A stretch of 64,000 nt of DNA from Candidatus Gastranaerophilales bacterium (GTDB lineage Bacteria; Cyanobacteriota; Vampirovibrionia; Gastranaerophilales; Gastranaerophilaceae), in assembly GCA_944322855.1 (NCBI GenBank), contig CALUQG010000005.1, forward strand, positions 62,001-126,000, written 5' to 3'. The translations under genes were made by a program, and so were the position numbers. Shown one piece after another: positions 24,573 to 31,536 of this stretch (the first letter of the stretch is position 1; each line of letters starts with the position of its first letter). The notes under the pieces were generated by a model. It was not told the DNA's origin. It searched no databases and was given only the letters and a program-made list of their open reading frames with translations.

Positions 24573-24634
24573 ATGTATAATTTAGCATAAAAATACGCTT
24601 TATGGTATTCTAAATAATGCATAGAGGGGTTGGT

Positions 24635-25603
24635 ATGCTAAAAGATATACTTGAAAAGAAAAAGTGTTTTAAACTAGTCTGCGGTGCAGGTAATGAAGAT
24701 GCAGACGAGGTTGAAAAGCTGGTCTATTTATACTCTATGGCCGGCTGTAATTTCTTTGATTTGTGTGCAAAGCCTGAAATAGTTGCTGCAGCAAAAAACG
24801 GATTAAAAAGAGCCGGAATATTCAATGATAGATATCTGTGCGTTAGCGTCGGTATAAAAGGCGATCCACATGTAAGCAAGGCCGATATTAATCCGGATAA
24901 ATGCAAACAATGCTCTTTATGCAATGATATATGTTTACAAAATGCCATATTTCACGACAATAACGGCTATACTGTCAACAGTAAAAGGTGTATAGGCTGC
25001 GCAAGATGTCTCAAAGTATGCAAGAATGACGCTATAGCGATTACCAGTGAATACAAAAATCTAAATGAAGTATTACCGCCAATTGTTGAAATGGGCATTG
25101 ACTGCATTGAATTACACGCTCTTGGTGAAAATGAGCTCGAAGTTGACGAAAAGTGGACTGATATTAATAATTCTTTTGACGGTATTCTTAGTATTTGTAT
25201 TGACCGTTCAAAGCTAGGAAATGAGGCTTTGTTGAAACGTGTGAACAGGATGTTGTCTTGCAGAAAACCGTATTCAACCATAATTCAGGCTGACGGAGCA
25301 CCAATGTCCGGTGCTGACGACGATTTTAAAACCACTCTGCAGACGGTAGCAACTGCCGAGATATTTCAAAATGCAAATTTACCTGTATATATTCTATTGT
25401 CAGGAGGAACAAACTCCAAATCAACCGAATTGGCTAAAATATGCGGTATAAATCCTAATGGTGTTGCAATCGGTTCATATGCCAGAAAAATTGTAAGAAG
25501 TTACATAATGAAAGAAGATTTTTTTGATAACCCAAATAGTATTTCTGCTGCACTAAAATTAGCTCAAGATCTTGTAAACAAGTCACTGGAGCACATGGGA
25601 TAA
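24635..25603 (+). CDS. ldpA: LdpA-like double [4Fe-4S] protein
   Basis: 322 residues from ATG 24635, which has GAGGGG 5 bp upstream; an in-frame ATG at 24617 precedes that site and is unlikely. The N-terminal part (CFKLVCGAGNEDADEV, YSMAGCNFFDLCAKPEIVAA) and the phrase VSVGIKGDPHVSKADINPDKC match cyanobacterial LdpA. Two CxxCxxCxxxC clusters follow (CKQCSLCNDIC and CIGCARCLKVC), then a TIM-barrel-like C-terminal part. In Synechococcus LdpA senses redox state and tunes circadian period; this organism shows no photosynthesis or clock genes here. It is one base from the HAD gene and heads a glycan-type cluster. The homology is from remembered sequence pattern, not a search. Confidence 0.75.
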   Translation: MLKDILEKKKCFKLVCGAGNEDADEVEKLVYLYSMAGCNFFDLCAKPEIVAAAKNGLKRAGIFNDRYLCVSVGIKGDPHVSKADINPDKCKQCSLCNDICLQNAIFHDNNGYTVNSKRCIGCARCLKVCKNDAIAITSEYKNLNEVLPPIVEMGIDCIELHALGENELEVDEKWTDINNSFDGILSICIDRSKLGNEALLKRVNRMLSCRKPYSTIIQADGAPMSGADDDFKTTLQTVATAEIFQNANLPVYILLSGGTNSKSTELAKICGINPNGVAIGSYARKIVRSYIMKEDFFDNPNSISAALKLAQDLVNKSLEHMG

Positions 25604-25604
25604 A

Positions 25605-26360
25605 ATGCTTTCAATTTATTGCGAAAATAATGTTGTTGAAAATATTGATACTGTTCTTTTGGATAAAGACGGTACATTTATTGATGCACACATATATTGG
25701 GGTGAAATTATTAAAAGAAGGGCATCTAAACTGATCGACTTTTACAAAATTAGCAATATACTCTTTGACAAAATATGTCTAGCTATGGGTTATGATGTAA
25801 AAATAAACAAACTTATAGAAAGTGGACCGATTGCACTTTTACCGAGAAATGATGTTATTTTGATATTACAAAATTTCTTTAAAGATATCTCAATTACAAC
25901 TGAATATGAAGATATAAGTGCTATTTTTGATACTGTCAACAAAGAATTTTTGCCATATATAAATGATTATGTTAAATTAATTGATGGCTCTGTTTCTTTA
26001 CTTTCTAATTTAAAAAATGCTGGCGCCAAAATAGCTGTTGTGACTTCTGATAGTTATGACAATACATTAAATATCCTTGAATTTCTTGATATAAAAAAGC
26101 ACTTTGACCTGATAATCGGAAAAGATAGCTGTGCTAACCCTAAAAGAAGTGGTAAACCTGCAATACTGGCAATGAGTAAGTTATGTTCATTACCAGAAAA
26201 TACAATATGTATCGGTGATGCAAAGATGGATGCAGATATGGCTCAAAATGCAAATTTAAAAGCTTCAATTCTGGTTGCCACAGGACAAACTTCTTTTAAT
26301 ACTTTGAGAAAATATTCTGATTTTGCAGTAAAATCATTATTGGAGTTGAAAATCAAATGA
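25605..26360 (+). CDS. HAD-superfamily phosphatase
   Basis: 251 residues. HAD motif I is LLDKDGTFID (Asp20 nucleophile, Asp22 general acid), motif II VVTSDSYDN, the conserved Lys in KRSGKPAIL and motif IV CIGDAKMDADMA. A helical cap lies between residues 30 and 125, as in phosphoglycolate-phosphatase-like enzymes. It starts one base after ldpA and overlaps the aldolase by 4 bp, so a phosphorylated intermediate of the cluster is the probable substrate. Confidence 0.82.
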   Translation: MLSIYCENNVVENIDTVLLDKDGTFIDAHIYWGEIIKRRASKLIDFYKISNILFDKICLAMGYDVKINKLIESGPIALLPRNDVILILQNFFKDISITTEYEDISAIFDTVNKEFLPYINDYVKLIDGSVSLLSNLKNAGAKIAVVTSDSYDNTLNILEFLDIKKHFDLIIGKDSCANPKRSGKPAILAMSKLCSLPENTICIGDAKMDADMAQNANLKASILVATGQTSFNTLRKYSDFAVKSLLELKIK

Positions 26361-28066
26361 CAGTAAAAGTATTAGATTGCACAATCAGAGACGGAGGACA
26401 TCTTAACAGCTGGAATTTTTCACCGGAATTTGTTCGTTCCGCCTATTTTGCTGCCTGCAAAAGCGGTGCAGACTATTTTGAAACAGGATACAGATTTCAT
26501 AATCCAGCAAAATCATTCGGTAAGTTTGCAATTTGCGACGATAGATACTTATCACAAATTTTTGACATAAAAAATGATTGCAAGTTGACTGTTATGATTG
26601 ATACAGGAAAATCAAATACAAAAGATTTTTGCGAGTGTAAGCCTGAATATACCCCAATTCAAACTGTAAGAGTTGCCGCTTATCCTTATGAACTTTTAGA
26701 GGCATTTAAACAGTGTGAAGAGTTGAAAGAAAAAAATTACGAAGTTATTTTGAATTTGATGGCAATTTCTGAATATAATGACGAACATTTTAACAAGCTA
26801 AAAAATTGGAATAATAAAAATATACTCAGCGCAGTAAGCTTTGCTGACAGTTTCGGTTCTTTCGTTCCTGATGATATTGAAGTAGTTGTTGATAAACTTA
26901 AAAATGCAGGATGTAATCATCTCGGTTTTCATTCTCATAATAATTTACAAATGGCTTTTGCCAATGCACTTAAAGCAATGGAGTGTTGTGTTGAAATTAT
27001 TGATGCTTCGGCTTTTGGTATGGGCAGAGGGGCTGGCAATCTTCCTATAGAAATATTAACAGGATATTTAGAGAAAAAAGGTAGCAAGAAATACAATCCG
27101 GTTTCATATTTGGATTTCATTGACAGATATATTTTACCTGAGATATCTAAAACTCCCTGGGGGTATAGTATTCCGACAATGATAAGCGGTATAAAAAATG
27201 TCCATCCGTATTATGTTAAAGATCTTTTTAACAAACACCTTTATACAATAAATGAGGTTTGGAATGCTTCCGGTCTCGTAAAAAAAGAATGTCCTGTATC
27301 TTTTAACAAAGAACACATGGAGACAATTCTTTCAGAAAAATTTGTGAATTATGATGATGTAAAAATTATAAATAAAATTCCGCTTACCCCTGAGCCCGAC
27401 GCATTTTTACAGGGCAAACCTGTATTTTACAATAAACATGCCGGCAGAAATTTTTTAATCATTGCAAACGGTTCTTCAATTTCTAAATACAAAGAGAAAA
27501 TTAATCATTTTATAAAAGAGAAAGACTGTATTGTAATAGGAACAAATTTTTTGGACAACCTATACACTCCGGATTACCATTGTTTTGTAAACAGAAAAAG
27601 ATTTTTAAAATACGGTTCAACAATCAGTAAAAATTCCACCTTATTGCTTCCTTCTTTTGCAGGGATTGCAATTATTGATAAAATTGGAAATTTAAAAAAT
27701 ACAGTTGCATATTTTGATGCAGAAGTCACTGACGATAAAAATTCTCCTGTTTTTAACGGCTTTTGTCACAATTATCTGGGGTTGAATGTTGCTATTAGTG
27801 CAATGTATTGCGCATTACAGATGGGAGCAAAAGAAATTTTTGCTGCAGGCATGGATGGTTTTGGTGAAAATGCCGAACTTATGGAATATTTCTATAAAGA
27901 GGCTGACAGTATTGACGATAAAAAAATGTTAGTAAACGCTTATGAAACTCTTTCTGAAGATTTGCAAAGAATAAACAGATATATGGAAAGCAAATCTATT
28001 CCATTTTCGATTATTACACCGACATCACATACAAATTATTACAAAAATATCATAGGAGTAGATTAA
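26357..28066 (+). CDS. Fused DRE-TIM aldolase and DUF115/GT42-like domain
   Basis: 569 residues with two parts. Residues 1-300 are a DRE-TIM metallolyase resembling 4-hydroxy-2-oxovalerate aldolase: LDCTIRDGGHLN with metal Asp, LGFHSHNNLQMA with the His-x-His ligands, and FGMGRGAGNLP. Residues 365-560 resemble Rossmann-like DUF115/GT42 proteins: FLIIANGSSISKYK, DYHCFVNRKRFL and ALQMGAKEIFAAGMDGFG. The first part should cleave or form a 2-oxo acid C-C bond; the second may bind or transfer a nucleotide sugar. The enzymes on both sides suggest a sugar-acid pathway. Product unknown. Confidence 0.78.
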   Translation: MTVKVLDCTIRDGGHLNSWNFSPEFVRSAYFAACKSGADYFETGYRFHNPAKSFGKFAICDDRYLSQIFDIKNDCKLTVMIDTGKSNTKDFCECKPEYTPIQTVRVAAYPYELLEAFKQCEELKEKNYEVILNLMAISEYNDEHFNKLKNWNNKNILSAVSFADSFGSFVPDDIEVVVDKLKNAGCNHLGFHSHNNLQMAFANALKAMECCVEIIDASAFGMGRGAGNLPIEILTGYLEKKGSKKYNPVSYLDFIDRYILPEISKTPWGYSIPTMISGIKNVHPYYVKDLFNKHLYTINEVWNASGLVKKECPVSFNKEHMETILSEKFVNYDDVKIINKIPLTPEPDAFLQGKPVFYNKHAGRNFLIIANGSSISKYKEKINHFIKEKDCIVIGTNFLDNLYTPDYHCFVNRKRFLKYGSTISKNSTLLLPSFAGIAIIDKIGNLKNTVAYFDAEVTDDKNSPVFNGFCHNYLGLNVAISAMYCALQMGAKEIFAAGMDGFGENAELMEYFYKEADSIDDKKMLVNAYETLSEDLQRINRYMESKSIPFSIITPTSHTNYYKNIIGVD

Positions 28067-28816
28067 ATGACCCTGAAAAATGATTTAAAATCAGGAAAAC
28101 AGATGTTTGGGACCTGGTGCATTATACCTTGTCCCGAAACAGTTAATATATTGTGCAAATCGGGTTTAGATTTTGTATTAATTGATTTTGAGCACAGCCC
28201 TGTAGACTATATATGTGCGCAAAAGATGATAATGGCAGCACATGCAGAAAACAAAAAAGCTGTTATAAGAGTTTCTAAATTAGATGAAGTCGAAATTCTG
28301 CGTTCACTTGATATAGCTTGTGACGGTATTATGGTACCACATGTTGAAACATCAGATGATGTAACTAAAATAGTATCATACTGCAAGTATCCTCCTGAAG
28401 GAATCAGAGGTTATTCACCATATACAAGAGCCGGAGGTTACTGTGTAAAAGAAAATTATACACAAACAGCTAACAACAATGTGTTCGTAAGCGCAATTAT
28501 TGAAAGCGTTAAAGGTGTAAATAATTTAGATAAAATACTTAAAAACCAATCACTTGATATGATATACATAGGTGCATATGATTTATCCGTAGAACTCGGA
28601 CATCCTGGTGATATTAATCATCCTGATGTGCAATCAGTTATTCAAAAATGTATTGATAAGTCACATGAACATTCTGTTTCAGTAGGAGCTATGTATCACA
28701 CAAGAGAGGATTATGAATATTTGAAAAAGAATGAGGTTAATTTTCTTGTCTATAAAGTAGACTCTTTGATTATAAATGAAGGTCTTTTATCCGTAAGAAA
28801 ATTAAAAGCATACTAG
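28067..28816 (+). CDS. HpcH/HpaI-family class II pyruvate aldolase
   Basis: 249 residues of the 2-keto-3-deoxy-acid aldolase family. Family features are QMFGTWCIIPCPETV, FVLIDFEHSPVD, GIMVPHVETSDDV, the PEGIRGYSPYTRAGGY loop with the conserved Arg, and IYIGAYDLSVELGHPG. It condenses pyruvate with an aldehyde (or cleaves the adduct) using a divalent metal. The ATG follows the preceding stop directly (TAAATG). In this cluster it more likely builds or trims a long-chain sugar acid than degrades aromatics. Confidence 0.87.
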   Translation: MTLKNDLKSGKQMFGTWCIIPCPETVNILCKSGLDFVLIDFEHSPVDYICAQKMIMAAHAENKKAVIRVSKLDEVEILRSLDIACDGIMVPHVETSDDVTKIVSYCKYPPEGIRGYSPYTRAGGYCVKENYTQTANNNVFVSAIIESVKGVNNLDKILKNQSLDMIYIGAYDLSVELGHPGDINHPDVQSVIQKCIDKSHEHSVSVGAMYHTREDYEYLKKNEVNFLVYKVDSLIINEGLLSVRKLKAY

Positions 28817-28829
28817 ACAGGCGGTAATT

Positions 28830-30608
28830 ATGAATGTTTCTGAATATATTATGGACAGGCTGGCAAAAGAGGGTGTTGAAAAAATATTCATGGTCTCAGG
28901 CGGCGGTGGTATGTACTTAATTGAGGCTCTCGGTCAAAACCCAAACATTAAGCACGTTTGTAACCACCATGAGCAGGCAAGCGTAATGGCTGCTGAAGGT
29001 TATCAAAGGGCAACTCAAAATCTTGGAGTTGCGCTGGTTACAACCGGCCCTGCCTCTACTAATGCACTGACAGGTGTCTGCTGTGCCTGGAATGACTCAA
29101 TACCTCTTCTTGTTCTTTCAGGGCAGGCAAAAACGGCCACTCTTGTTGGAAATACAGGAATGAGACAAAGAGGTACACATGAAGTAAATATTGTTCCAAT
29201 TGTTAAGCCTGTCACAAAGTATGCTGTAACAGTTATGGATGCAAGAAAAATAAGATATCATCTTGAAAAAGCATTATATCTCGCCAAAAACGGCCGCCCT
29301 GGGCCTGTATGGCTTGATATTCCTCTTGATATTCAACAGGCCCAAATTAACCCTAATGAACTTGAAACTTATGTCCCTGAAAATCAACAGGAATACGACT
29401 ACAAACTGGATGAATTGTTGAGCTTGCTTAATTCATCCAAAAGGCCAATTTTTATTGCAGGATACGGGCTAAAGTTATCAAAGCAGAATAAGTTATTTTT
29501 AAATCTGGCAGATGAATTTAATATACCAATTGTTACCACTAAAAATGGTTTTGATATAGTAGCAAATGATAACAGACTTCTTGCCGGAAGAATAGGAATA
29601 AACGGACAAAGAGCAGCCAATATTGCTGTTCAAAATGCTGATTTAATAATAGCCATCGGCGCCAGACTTCCTCTTGTTACTGTCGGCTACGAGACAAATT
29701 TGTTTGGAAAGAATGCAAAGAAGGTTCTTGTCGATGTTGATGATGCACAGCTTGAATATGCCCATATACCTCTCGATTTAAAAATAAAGGCAGACTTAAA
29801 ATATTTTGTAGAAAAATTCTATGAAAAGCTCATACAGAGTAATTTTTCATATGACTCATCAAAATGGCTTGACAAAATCAATAACTTAAAAAAAAGTTAT
29901 CCAGTTATTACAGATGAAATACTTAAACAGAAAAAATACGTAAATTCTTATTATTTCTTTGATATTCTGTCAGATGTAATGAATGCTGATGATATACTTG
30001 TTACAGATCAAGGAGCAACTTTTTATTCCTTTACACCGGCATTTAAAGTCAAAGAAAATCAGCTTGCTTATACAAACGGCGGATTTTCGCCAATGGGTTA
30101 CGGTTTACCTGCTTCAATAGGTTCTTGCTTTGCGAAAGACGGGAACCGTGTCTTTTCCGTAAACGGTGACGGAGGACTTCAAATGAATATACAGGAACTT
30201 CAGACTGTAATACATAATAAGCTCAATATGAAGATATTTGTTTTTAATAATGACGGATATCTAAGTATAAAACACACTCAAAATACGTTTTTTAACGGAC
30301 ATTTTGTCGGCTCTGACCCTAAAAGCGGAGTGTCATGTCCTGATACTATCAAGATTGCAAAGGCATACGGTTTTAAACACTTTAGAATAAAGAATAATAA
30401 AGATGTAAAGAAAACTCTTTTAAAAATCACTAAAACTAAAGGCCCTGTACTAACAGAGGTTATGATAGATCCGATGCAGGCATTTTTACCGAAAGTTACC
30501 TCAAAACGGCTTGAAGATGGTACAATGATTTCAAGTTCTCTTGAAAATATGGCTCCTTTTTTACCTGAAAAAGAACTTGAAGAGGTTATGAAAAATGAAG
30601 AAGATTAG
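28830..30608 (+). CDS. Thiamine-diphosphate enzyme, acetolactate-synthase-like
   Basis: 592 residues with the three-domain ThDP fold. The catalytic Glu48 lies in HHEQASVMAAEGY, GPASTNALTGVCCAW follows, and the cofactor motif is NGDGGLQMNIQEL with FNNDGY at its end. The body is like the large subunit of acetohydroxyacid synthase, but there is no regulatory subunit gene and no other Ile/Val genes; the glycosyltransferase and aldolases around it suggest a sugar-modifying decarboxylase or carboligase instead. GGCGG lies 8 bp before the ATG. It overlaps the GT2 gene by 14 bp. Confidence 0.87.
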   Translation: MNVSEYIMDRLAKEGVEKIFMVSGGGGMYLIEALGQNPNIKHVCNHHEQASVMAAEGYQRATQNLGVALVTTGPASTNALTGVCCAWNDSIPLLVLSGQAKTATLVGNTGMRQRGTHEVNIVPIVKPVTKYAVTVMDARKIRYHLEKALYLAKNGRPGPVWLDIPLDIQQAQINPNELETYVPENQQEYDYKLDELLSLLNSSKRPIFIAGYGLKLSKQNKLFLNLADEFNIPIVTTKNGFDIVANDNRLLAGRIGINGQRAANIAVQNADLIIAIGARLPLVTVGYETNLFGKNAKKVLVDVDDAQLEYAHIPLDLKIKADLKYFVEKFYEKLIQSNFSYDSSKWLDKINNLKKSYPVITDEILKQKKYVNSYYFFDILSDVMNADDILVTDQGATFYSFTPAFKVKENQLAYTNGGFSPMGYGLPASIGSCFAKDGNRVFSVNGDGGLQMNIQELQTVIHNKLNMKIFVFNNDGYLSIKHTQNTFFNGHFVGSDPKSGVSCPDTIKIAKAYGFKHFRIKNNKDVKKTLLKITKTKGPVLTEVMIDPMQAFLPKVTSKRLEDGTMISSSLENMAPFLPEKELEEVMKNEED

Positions 30609-31536
30609 TATTGTATCAGCGTGCTATAACGAGGAAGACAATATTTTACCGTTTTATAACTCTGTGATAAATGAATTGTCAAAACTTGAACAATATGATT
30701 ACGAATTCATCGTTATAGACAATAAATCAAACGACAAAACCCGTGATATTTTAATAGATTTGGCTTCAAAAAACCATAAATTCAAAGTAATTTTTAATTC
30801 GAAGAATTTTGGTGCGCTAAAATCACCTTTTTATGCAATGCAGCAGGCCTCAGGCGATTGCATGGTATATATTGCATCTGACCTTCAAGACCCGCCGTCT
30901 CTTATACCTGAATTACTCAAGTGCTGGGAAGATGGTTATAAAATAGCGGTAGGGGTAAAGACAAAAAGCAAAGAATCTAAATTAATGTGGATATTACGGC
31001 AGATATTTTACAAATTTATTAATGCTGTTGAAAGTGAAGACTCAAATATCATAGAAAATTACACAGGTTACGGTGTATATGACAGGACTGTAGTCGAGCT
31101 TATGAAGCAAAATGATGACCCAACACCTGACATGAAAAGCATTTTGTCTGACATAGGATTTGACATAAAAACAATTGAATACACGCAACAAGCAAGAAAA
31201 CATGGTAAATCAAAATACAATTTATTACGATTGTATAGTTGTGCTATGAATATTATCACTAAACATTCGTTTTTCCCCATAAGACTTGCAACATTCAGCG
31301 GATTTATTCTGGCTATGATTAGTATGCTGATATCAATAATTTATCTGTTCCTTAAAATCTTTCACTGGGAGAGCTATGAGCTTGGTATGGCATCTTTAAT
31401 AATCGGTCTGTTCTTTTTCTCCTCGGTTCAGCTGTTTTTTATAGGAATTTTAGGAGAATACATCGGTGCTATTTATACAAGGGTAAATAAAAAGCCGCTT
31501 GTAGTTGTTGAAAGAAGATTTAATTTTGATGAATAA
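30595..31536 (+). CDS. Family 2 glycosyltransferase, DPM1/GtrB type
   Basis: 313 residues. The GT-A domain has SIVSACYNEEDNI, VIDNKSNDKTRDI and the nucleotide-binding SDLQDPPSLIPELL, as in dolichol/undecaprenyl-phosphate mannosyl or glucosyl transferases. Two C-terminal membrane helices (FSGFILAMISMLISIIYLFL and SLIIGLFFFSSVQLFF) follow. It likely loads a sugar onto undecaprenyl phosphate at the inner membrane. Last gene of the ldpA-led run, overlapping the ThDP gene. Confidence 0.9.
   Translation: MKKISIVSACYNEEDNILPFYNSVINELSKLEQYDYEFIVIDNKSNDKTRDILIDLASKNHKFKVIFNSKNFGALKSPFYAMQQASGDCMVYIASDLQDPPSLIPELLKCWEDGYKIAVGVKTKSKESKLMWILRQIFYKFINAVESEDSNIIENYTGYGVYDRTVVELMKQNDDPTPDMKSILSDIGFDIKTIEYTQQARKHGKSKYNLLRLYSCAMNIITKHSFFPIRLATFSGFILAMISMLISIIYLFLKIFHWESYELGMASLIIGLFFFSSVQLFFIGILGEYIGAIYTRVNKKPLVVVERRFNFDE

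Follow-up and report, generated by a model that had tools for sequence, protein, structure and literature searches.

YerE-like ThDP enzymes transfer the acyl unit of a 2-oxo acid to ketones; the acceptor of YerE itself is CDP-4-keto-3,6-dideoxyglucose, and ErwE, another member of the family, prefers 4-hydroxy-2-oxo acids, according to a family review (PMC12247030). This review was the only publication that surfaced in a literature search for aldolases in YerE-like clusters. JanthE is also a YerE-like enzyme (PMC12188165). Enzymes of this family are sought for the synthesis of tertiary alcohols, and the natural donor of most of them is unassigned.

Here, we describe a compact gene cassette from a gut bacterium, Candidatus Gastranaerophilales bacterium, and read it, with a probability of about 0.78, as a branched-chain-sugar cassette of the YerE type—one that would make its own donor through aldolases, use CDP-4-keto-3,6-dideoxy-D-glucose as the acceptor and rely on a GT2 glycosyltransferase for lipid loading. 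This reading draws on protein families, conservation of catalytic residues, the finding that rfbFGH is present and linked, and a recurring gene neighbourhood, all established by sequence or genome comparison. An initial interpretation made from the letters of the DNA (hereafter, the sequence-only reading) knew of no described glycan pathway with this exact gene set, which was too strong, as YerE-like branching of CDP-4-keto-3,6-dideoxyglucose has been published, including by enzymes that use 4-hydroxy-2-oxo acids (PMC12247030).

The window, meaning the whole stretch of DNA that was analysed, comprised 64,000 nucleotides (GenBank assembly GCA_944322855.1, contig CALUQG010000005.1, positions 62,001 to 126,000). 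Family calls for its ORFs came from an HMM check against Pfam and NCBIfam (Table 1). The five packed ORFs claimed by the sequence-only reading at 25605–31536 on the forward strand, from HAD through fusion, HpcH/HpaI and ThDP to GT2, are real, and their coordinates and strand match; consecutive ORFs are spaced by −4, 0, +13 and −14 bases. That reading had overlooked the first gene of the cassette, which encodes an LdpA-like protein and ends one base from the start of the HAD gene. The LdpA-like gene occupies the same position upstream of HAD in loci L024, L146, L268 and L141, and the view that it is a mere flank was discarded after analysis of L141, L146 and genome G206.

Table 1 Cassette features in the window, with supporting matches.
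Feature	Coordinates	Strand	Family evidence and remarks
LdpA-like protein	24617..25603	+	Two 4Fe-4S motifs, LdpA_C; first cassette gene; PF12617 E 7e-20, Fer4 motifs
HAD phosphatase	25605..26360	+	PF13419 (HAD_2) E 3e-22
DRE-TIM aldolase-MptE/MAF/GT42-fold fusion	26357..28066	+	PF00682 HMGL-like 3e-18, MptE-like 3e-6
HpcH/HpaI class II pyruvate aldolase	28067..28816	+	PF03328 E 4e-33
YerE-like ThDP carboligase	28830..30608	+	TPP N/M/C domains all above cut-off; best PDB match JanthE 8rph
GT2, DPM1/ArnC/PgfS type	30595..31536	+	PF00535 Glycos_transf_2 E 5e-25; two C-terminal TM helices

A search for the same gene order in other genomes recovered HAD–fusion–HpcH–ThDP in two phyla: a further species of the genus and a further genus of the family carry it, and so does a genome from the Elusimicrobiales. 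With the LdpA-like gene in front, one and the same order is seen in the window, in G022, in G104 (locus L146, from a Candidatus Gastranaerophilales bacterium) and in the Elusimicrobiales locus L141, with overlaps of no more than 29 bases and gaps of no more than 13. Identity to the window drops in step for all cassette proteins (77, 67 and 57% for the ThDP protein and 74, 71 and 56% for the LdpA-like protein in G022, L146/G104 and L141, respectively), and LdpA-like proteins are 56–74% identical among cassette loci of the two phyla. This recurring gene order is more than chance. The aldolase tree places L141 inside the starred group that holds the window, G022, L146 and G035, a placement compatible with transfer between phyla.

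In G104 and G206, two genomes from other genera, the cassette lies directly behind rfbFGH, in the order rfbF, rfbG, rfbH, LdpA-like, HAD, fusion, HpcH (in G104 but not G206), ThDP, a gene for a large protein predicted to have numerous TM segments, a reductase/epimerase-type gene, GT2 and GtrA. The proposal of a compact sugar pathway was right. Of these loci, just the window and G022 have the GT2 gene next to ThDP; in G104 and G206 it lies farther along the operon, and it was accordingly dropped as a core cassette member. Its product matches PgfS (1e-53) and ArnC (6e-38) in NCBIfam, both under cut-off, and has TM helices predicted at residues 226–258 and 263–288. These helices and the proximity of the same GT2 to GtrA in the two full operons support placement of the sugar on a lipid carrier, as first suggested from the sequence. 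The window's genome carries a homologue of the reductase on contig C14 (56% identity to that of L146), unlinked to the cassette; neither GtrA nor a homologue of the large membrane protein of G104 was found in this genome.

The best PDB match of the window ThDP protein is JanthE (8rph, E 2.8e-126), followed by plant acetohydroxyacid synthase (AHAS; 5.5e-70). Its ThDP machinery is retained, with HHEQ at residues 46–49 (including the catalytic Glu) and G446-D447-G448 invariant in A1; JanthE residues Y297, K567, H494 and F564 are kept, with V121, Y268, P293 and S498 changed. At the position of the AHAS acceptor-site Trp the window protein has Thr, a replacement shared by 84 of the 91 YerE-like sequences in the alignment. 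Val occupies the position of the AHAS active-site Arg, and loss of this Arg was discarded as a YerE marker because 72 of the 91 relatives keep it. That the ThDP protein is an AHAS and the cluster part of primary metabolism is scarcely credible: the score of 370 bits against the NCBIfam acolac_lg model speaks for it but falls under the cut-off of 538, the active-site Trp and Arg are replaced by Thr and Val, and the same genome has ilvB with adjacent ilvN on contig C23, apart from the cassette. We ruled out an AHAS role given this separate, complete ilvBN pair; the protein is therefore not the sole AHAS of the genome, a possibility that the sequence-only reading had raised against itself.

Genes for a CDP-4-keto-3,6-dideoxyhexose are associated with the cassette, on another contig of the window's genome and in the same operon in G104 and G206. 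Contig C22 of the window's genome, unlinked to the cassette, carries rfbF, rfbG and rfbH, encoding glucose-1-phosphate cytidylyltransferase, CDP-glucose 4,6-dehydratase and RfbH; each of the three passes its NCBIfam equivalog cut-off. In a set of 23 genomes from the genus, 16 encode RfbH together with a YerE-like protein, five encode neither and two encode one without the other (Fisher p 0.001, uncorrected for kinship), the exceptions being G001, with a YerE-like protein and no RfbH, and G010, where the reverse holds. A YerE-like gene of another type lies in one run with rfbFGH in G005 and G021. More widely, RfbH plus RfbF or RfbG is found at 34 of the 74 intact YerE-like loci among the matches listed, from many phyla. 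The stretch of the Elusimicrobiales locus that was read holds an epimerase-type SDR gene and no rfbFGH.

Two aldolases could supply the donor. The HpcH/HpaI protein has GarL as its best PDB match (1dxe, E 2e-34), and its residues H43, R68, E146 and D172, which we take to be those of the class II aldolase active site, align with GarL H50, R75, E153 and D179 (four of four checked). The aldolase domain of the fusion, at about residues 1–318, is closest in the PDB to a 'putative aldolase' (3dxi, E 9e-41), with 4-hydroxy-2-oxovalerate aldolases next; it retains R11, D12, H15, H192 and H194 of the RDG-x-H and HxH motifs, presumably its catalytic and metal-binding residues, and failed the NCBIfam equivalog test for 4-hydroxy-2-oxovalerate aldolase (95 against 286 bits).

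Scanning named genomes with the YerE-like alignment gave at least 80 loci, 74 of them with an intact ThDP gene. Among these 74, as listed, 21 carry a DRE-TIM aldolase, 14 carry one of the HpcH type and three carry both. In the 32 loci with either class, every such aldolase gene is no more than three genes away from ThDP; the other 42 have neither nearby. Aldolases so close to the carboligase in 32 of the 74 listed loci agree with the earlier notion of branching by a carboligase that aldolases feed. The main argument for such feeding comes from loci L147, L180 and L183, where the aldolase scores over the 4-hydroxy-2-oxovalerate aldolase equivalog cut-off and an acetaldehyde dehydrogenase gene is adjacent, the two enzymes being a known pair that leads to 4-hydroxy-2-oxopentanoate. 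Each of the two aldolase classes seems capable of supplying the ThDP enzyme, since a genome-wide search of G206 (93% complete) gave no HpcH match and most genomes of the genus carry HpcH2–HAD–ThDP without a DRE-TIM aldolase. Several observations count against the branched-chain-sugar reading: two aldolases exceed the need of one donor, 42 of the 74 listed loci have no such aldolase close by, the Elusimicrobiales stretch holds no rfbFGH, G001 and G010 break the pairing of RfbH with a YerE-like protein, and in the window's genome rfbFGH and the reductase homologue are unlinked to the cassette and GtrA was not found. Dehydroquinate-synthase-like genes, some with an SDR gene, also stand beside YerE-like genes in several phyla (L097 10403–12129; L162, L163, L177 and L182) and perhaps mark an alternative donor or acceptor route.

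The C-terminal domain of the fusion (about residues 340–569) has an MptE-like Pfam score under the Pfam cut-off, and its AlphaFold model (mean pLDDT 81) aligns with the MAf glycosyltransferase 5mu5 at Z 15.3 (196 residues, rmsd 3.5), with archaeal HPPK 8sd5 at Z 12.6 and with the Campylobacter jejuni sialyltransferases CstI and CstII at Z about 11; the MAF match came from a second aligner, Foldseek alone having put HPPK and SteA on top. The label 'DUF115/GT42-like' originally given to this domain agrees with the modelled fold, also allowing for the HPPK match, and GT42-like is right as a description of that predicted fold; glycosyltransferase activity is putative. The fusions fall into two branches, one with RDGGH, as in the window cassette, and one with RDGGY, found in Bacillota, a Treponema and some Gastranaerophilales. 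RDGGY fusions in G022, G024 and G034 adjoin KdsB- or PseF-like cytidylyltransferases (L030 8577–10881, on contig C16 of G022; L032; L033), a possible CMP-ulosonic acid system. Those of the Bacillota sample adjoin YerE-like genes, an adjacency that follows from the search design, as the loci were found via YerE-like genes. At L219 (8755–10412), two transketolase-half-like genes lie by a YerE-like gene and a lone RDGGY aldolase.

Such arrangements bear on an explanation close to the sequence-only suggestion of a long-chain ulosonic acid, in which a 2-oxo-3-deoxy sugar acid produced by the aldolases would be activated with CMP and moved by the GT42-like domain, the ThDP enzyme being a side activity. 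We consider this improbable. The predicted MAF/GT42 fold is consistent with it, and its best support is the set of RDGGY fusions next to cytidylyltransferases, but these form a separate branch from the cassette fusion, and that branch also adjoins YerE-like genes in many Bacillota. Moreover, no cassette locus has a cytidylyltransferase of the KdsB/PseF kind or a CMP-ulosonate synthetase gene, such matches in the window's own genome lying on other contigs, and the linked sugar-nucleotide set is rfbFGH, present in this genome and in the same operon in two relatives; the ulosonic acid proposal is not supported. A different explanation would separate the genes into parallel products, ThDP and HpcH making the branched sugar and the fusion, LdpA-like protein and HAD catalysing another reaction, merely co-transferred. 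LdpA-like matches (E < 0.001) occur in all 192 genomes searched across the order, and of the order's 30 best LdpA loci, 23 have HAD directly 3′ of LdpA, mostly with no fusion behind it; this commonness of the pair favours separation, as do the lone aldolases that follow LdpA in G018, G020 and G089 and the HpcH2–HAD–ThDP sets of most of the genus. G206, however, keeps LdpA–HAD–fusion–ThDP with no HpcH match genome-wide, and fused aldolases adjoin ThDP in many Bacillota and a Treponema, and we regard separate reactions as quite unlikely. We also think it doubtful that the fusion is a two-step enzyme whose GT42-fold nucleotide-binding domain receives or positions the oxo acid made by the aldolase, with the LdpA-like protein adding a further undescribed step and a side chain built by two successive aldol additions, giving an undescribed type of sugar.

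LdpA is a cyanobacterial circadian clock protein. The window's LdpA-like protein reaches 153 bits with the NCBIfam LdpA model, whose cut-off is 450, and the equivalog identity was rejected; its predicted structure gave only generic TIM-barrel matches (three-sequence input, mean pLDDT 65). The lone DRE-TIM aldolases, which have no GT42-like domain, directly follow the LdpA-like gene at L026 and L027 (G020 and G018) and L270 (G089); in G018 and G020 the lone aldolase lies between LdpA and an FAD oxidoreductase/methyltransferase pair, where the window carries the whole cassette.

For the branched-chain-sugar reading, we infer the substrates, step order and final structure, and likewise any role of HAD, of the LdpA-like Fe-S protein and of the GT42-fold domain. 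Pyruvate and an aldehyde would be joined into a 4-hydroxy-2-oxo acid by at least one of the two pyruvate aldolases (the DRE-TIM domain of the fusion and HpcH/HpaI), and HAD would remove phosphate from it if the aldehyde were a phospho-aldehyde. RfbF, RfbG and RfbH would convert glucose-1-phosphate to CDP-4-keto-3,6-dideoxy-D-glucose. The YerE-like enzyme would decarboxylate the 4-hydroxy-2-oxo acid and transfer the acyl unit to C4 of that sugar; the NAD-dependent reductase/epimerase-type protein may then reduce the side-chain ketone. Finally, GT2 would load the sugar onto polyprenyl phosphate, allowing export and extracytoplasmic attachment.

The genes look like a portable cassette, recurring in two phyla, that attaches a short carbon side chain to a rare surface sugar, and they predict that this little-studied gut lineage of Gastranaerophilales, for which we know of no characterised surface glycan, probably bears unusual branched surface sugars. 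The aldolase genes that recur next to YerE-like genes, some of them for true 4-hydroxy-2-oxovalerate aldolases, give a pointer to the class of donor that these enzymes use, and the LdpA-type Fe-S protein gains a possible metabolic setting outside the cyanobacterial clock.

Compared with known systems, the locus stands nearest to the YerE-like family (YerE, ErwE, JanthE and MMAR_2332), with which it shares sequence similarity (JanthE being the top PDB hit), the Trp-to-Thr replacement relative to AHAS and the association with CDP-4-keto-3,6-dideoxyglucose genes. It differs from JanthE in having the canonical GDG where JanthE has CDG, and its aldolase–GT42-fold fusion and LdpA-like Fe-S protein are absent from the available part of the family review (PMC12247030). 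The HpcH/HpaI protein has the fold and the four checked active-site residues of the GarL/HpaI class II aldolases but scores too low for either equivalog model (167 bits with a cut-off of 407 in the case of GarL). The fusion resembles 4-hydroxy-2-oxovalerate aldolase (DmpG/MhpE) in its DRE-TIM barrel and R-D-G-x-H and H-x-H residues, yet it is far under that equivalog cut-off and nearer to 3dxi, and a GT42-fold domain replaces the acetaldehyde dehydrogenase partner. This domain has the predicted fold of MAF flagellin glycosyltransferases, GT42 sialyltransferases and HPPK MptE, at 11–13% identity and, unlike them, fused to an aldolase. Pathways of the erwiniose/caryophyllose type, whose longer side chains derive from hydroxylated 2-oxo acids, likewise couple a YerE-like enzyme to a source of 4-hydroxy-2-oxo acid—a source that neighbouring aldolases suggest here, three loci of the family having a true 4-hydroxy-2-oxovalerate aldolase—whereas the window, from Gastranaerophilales, brings two aldolase classes together in one cassette.
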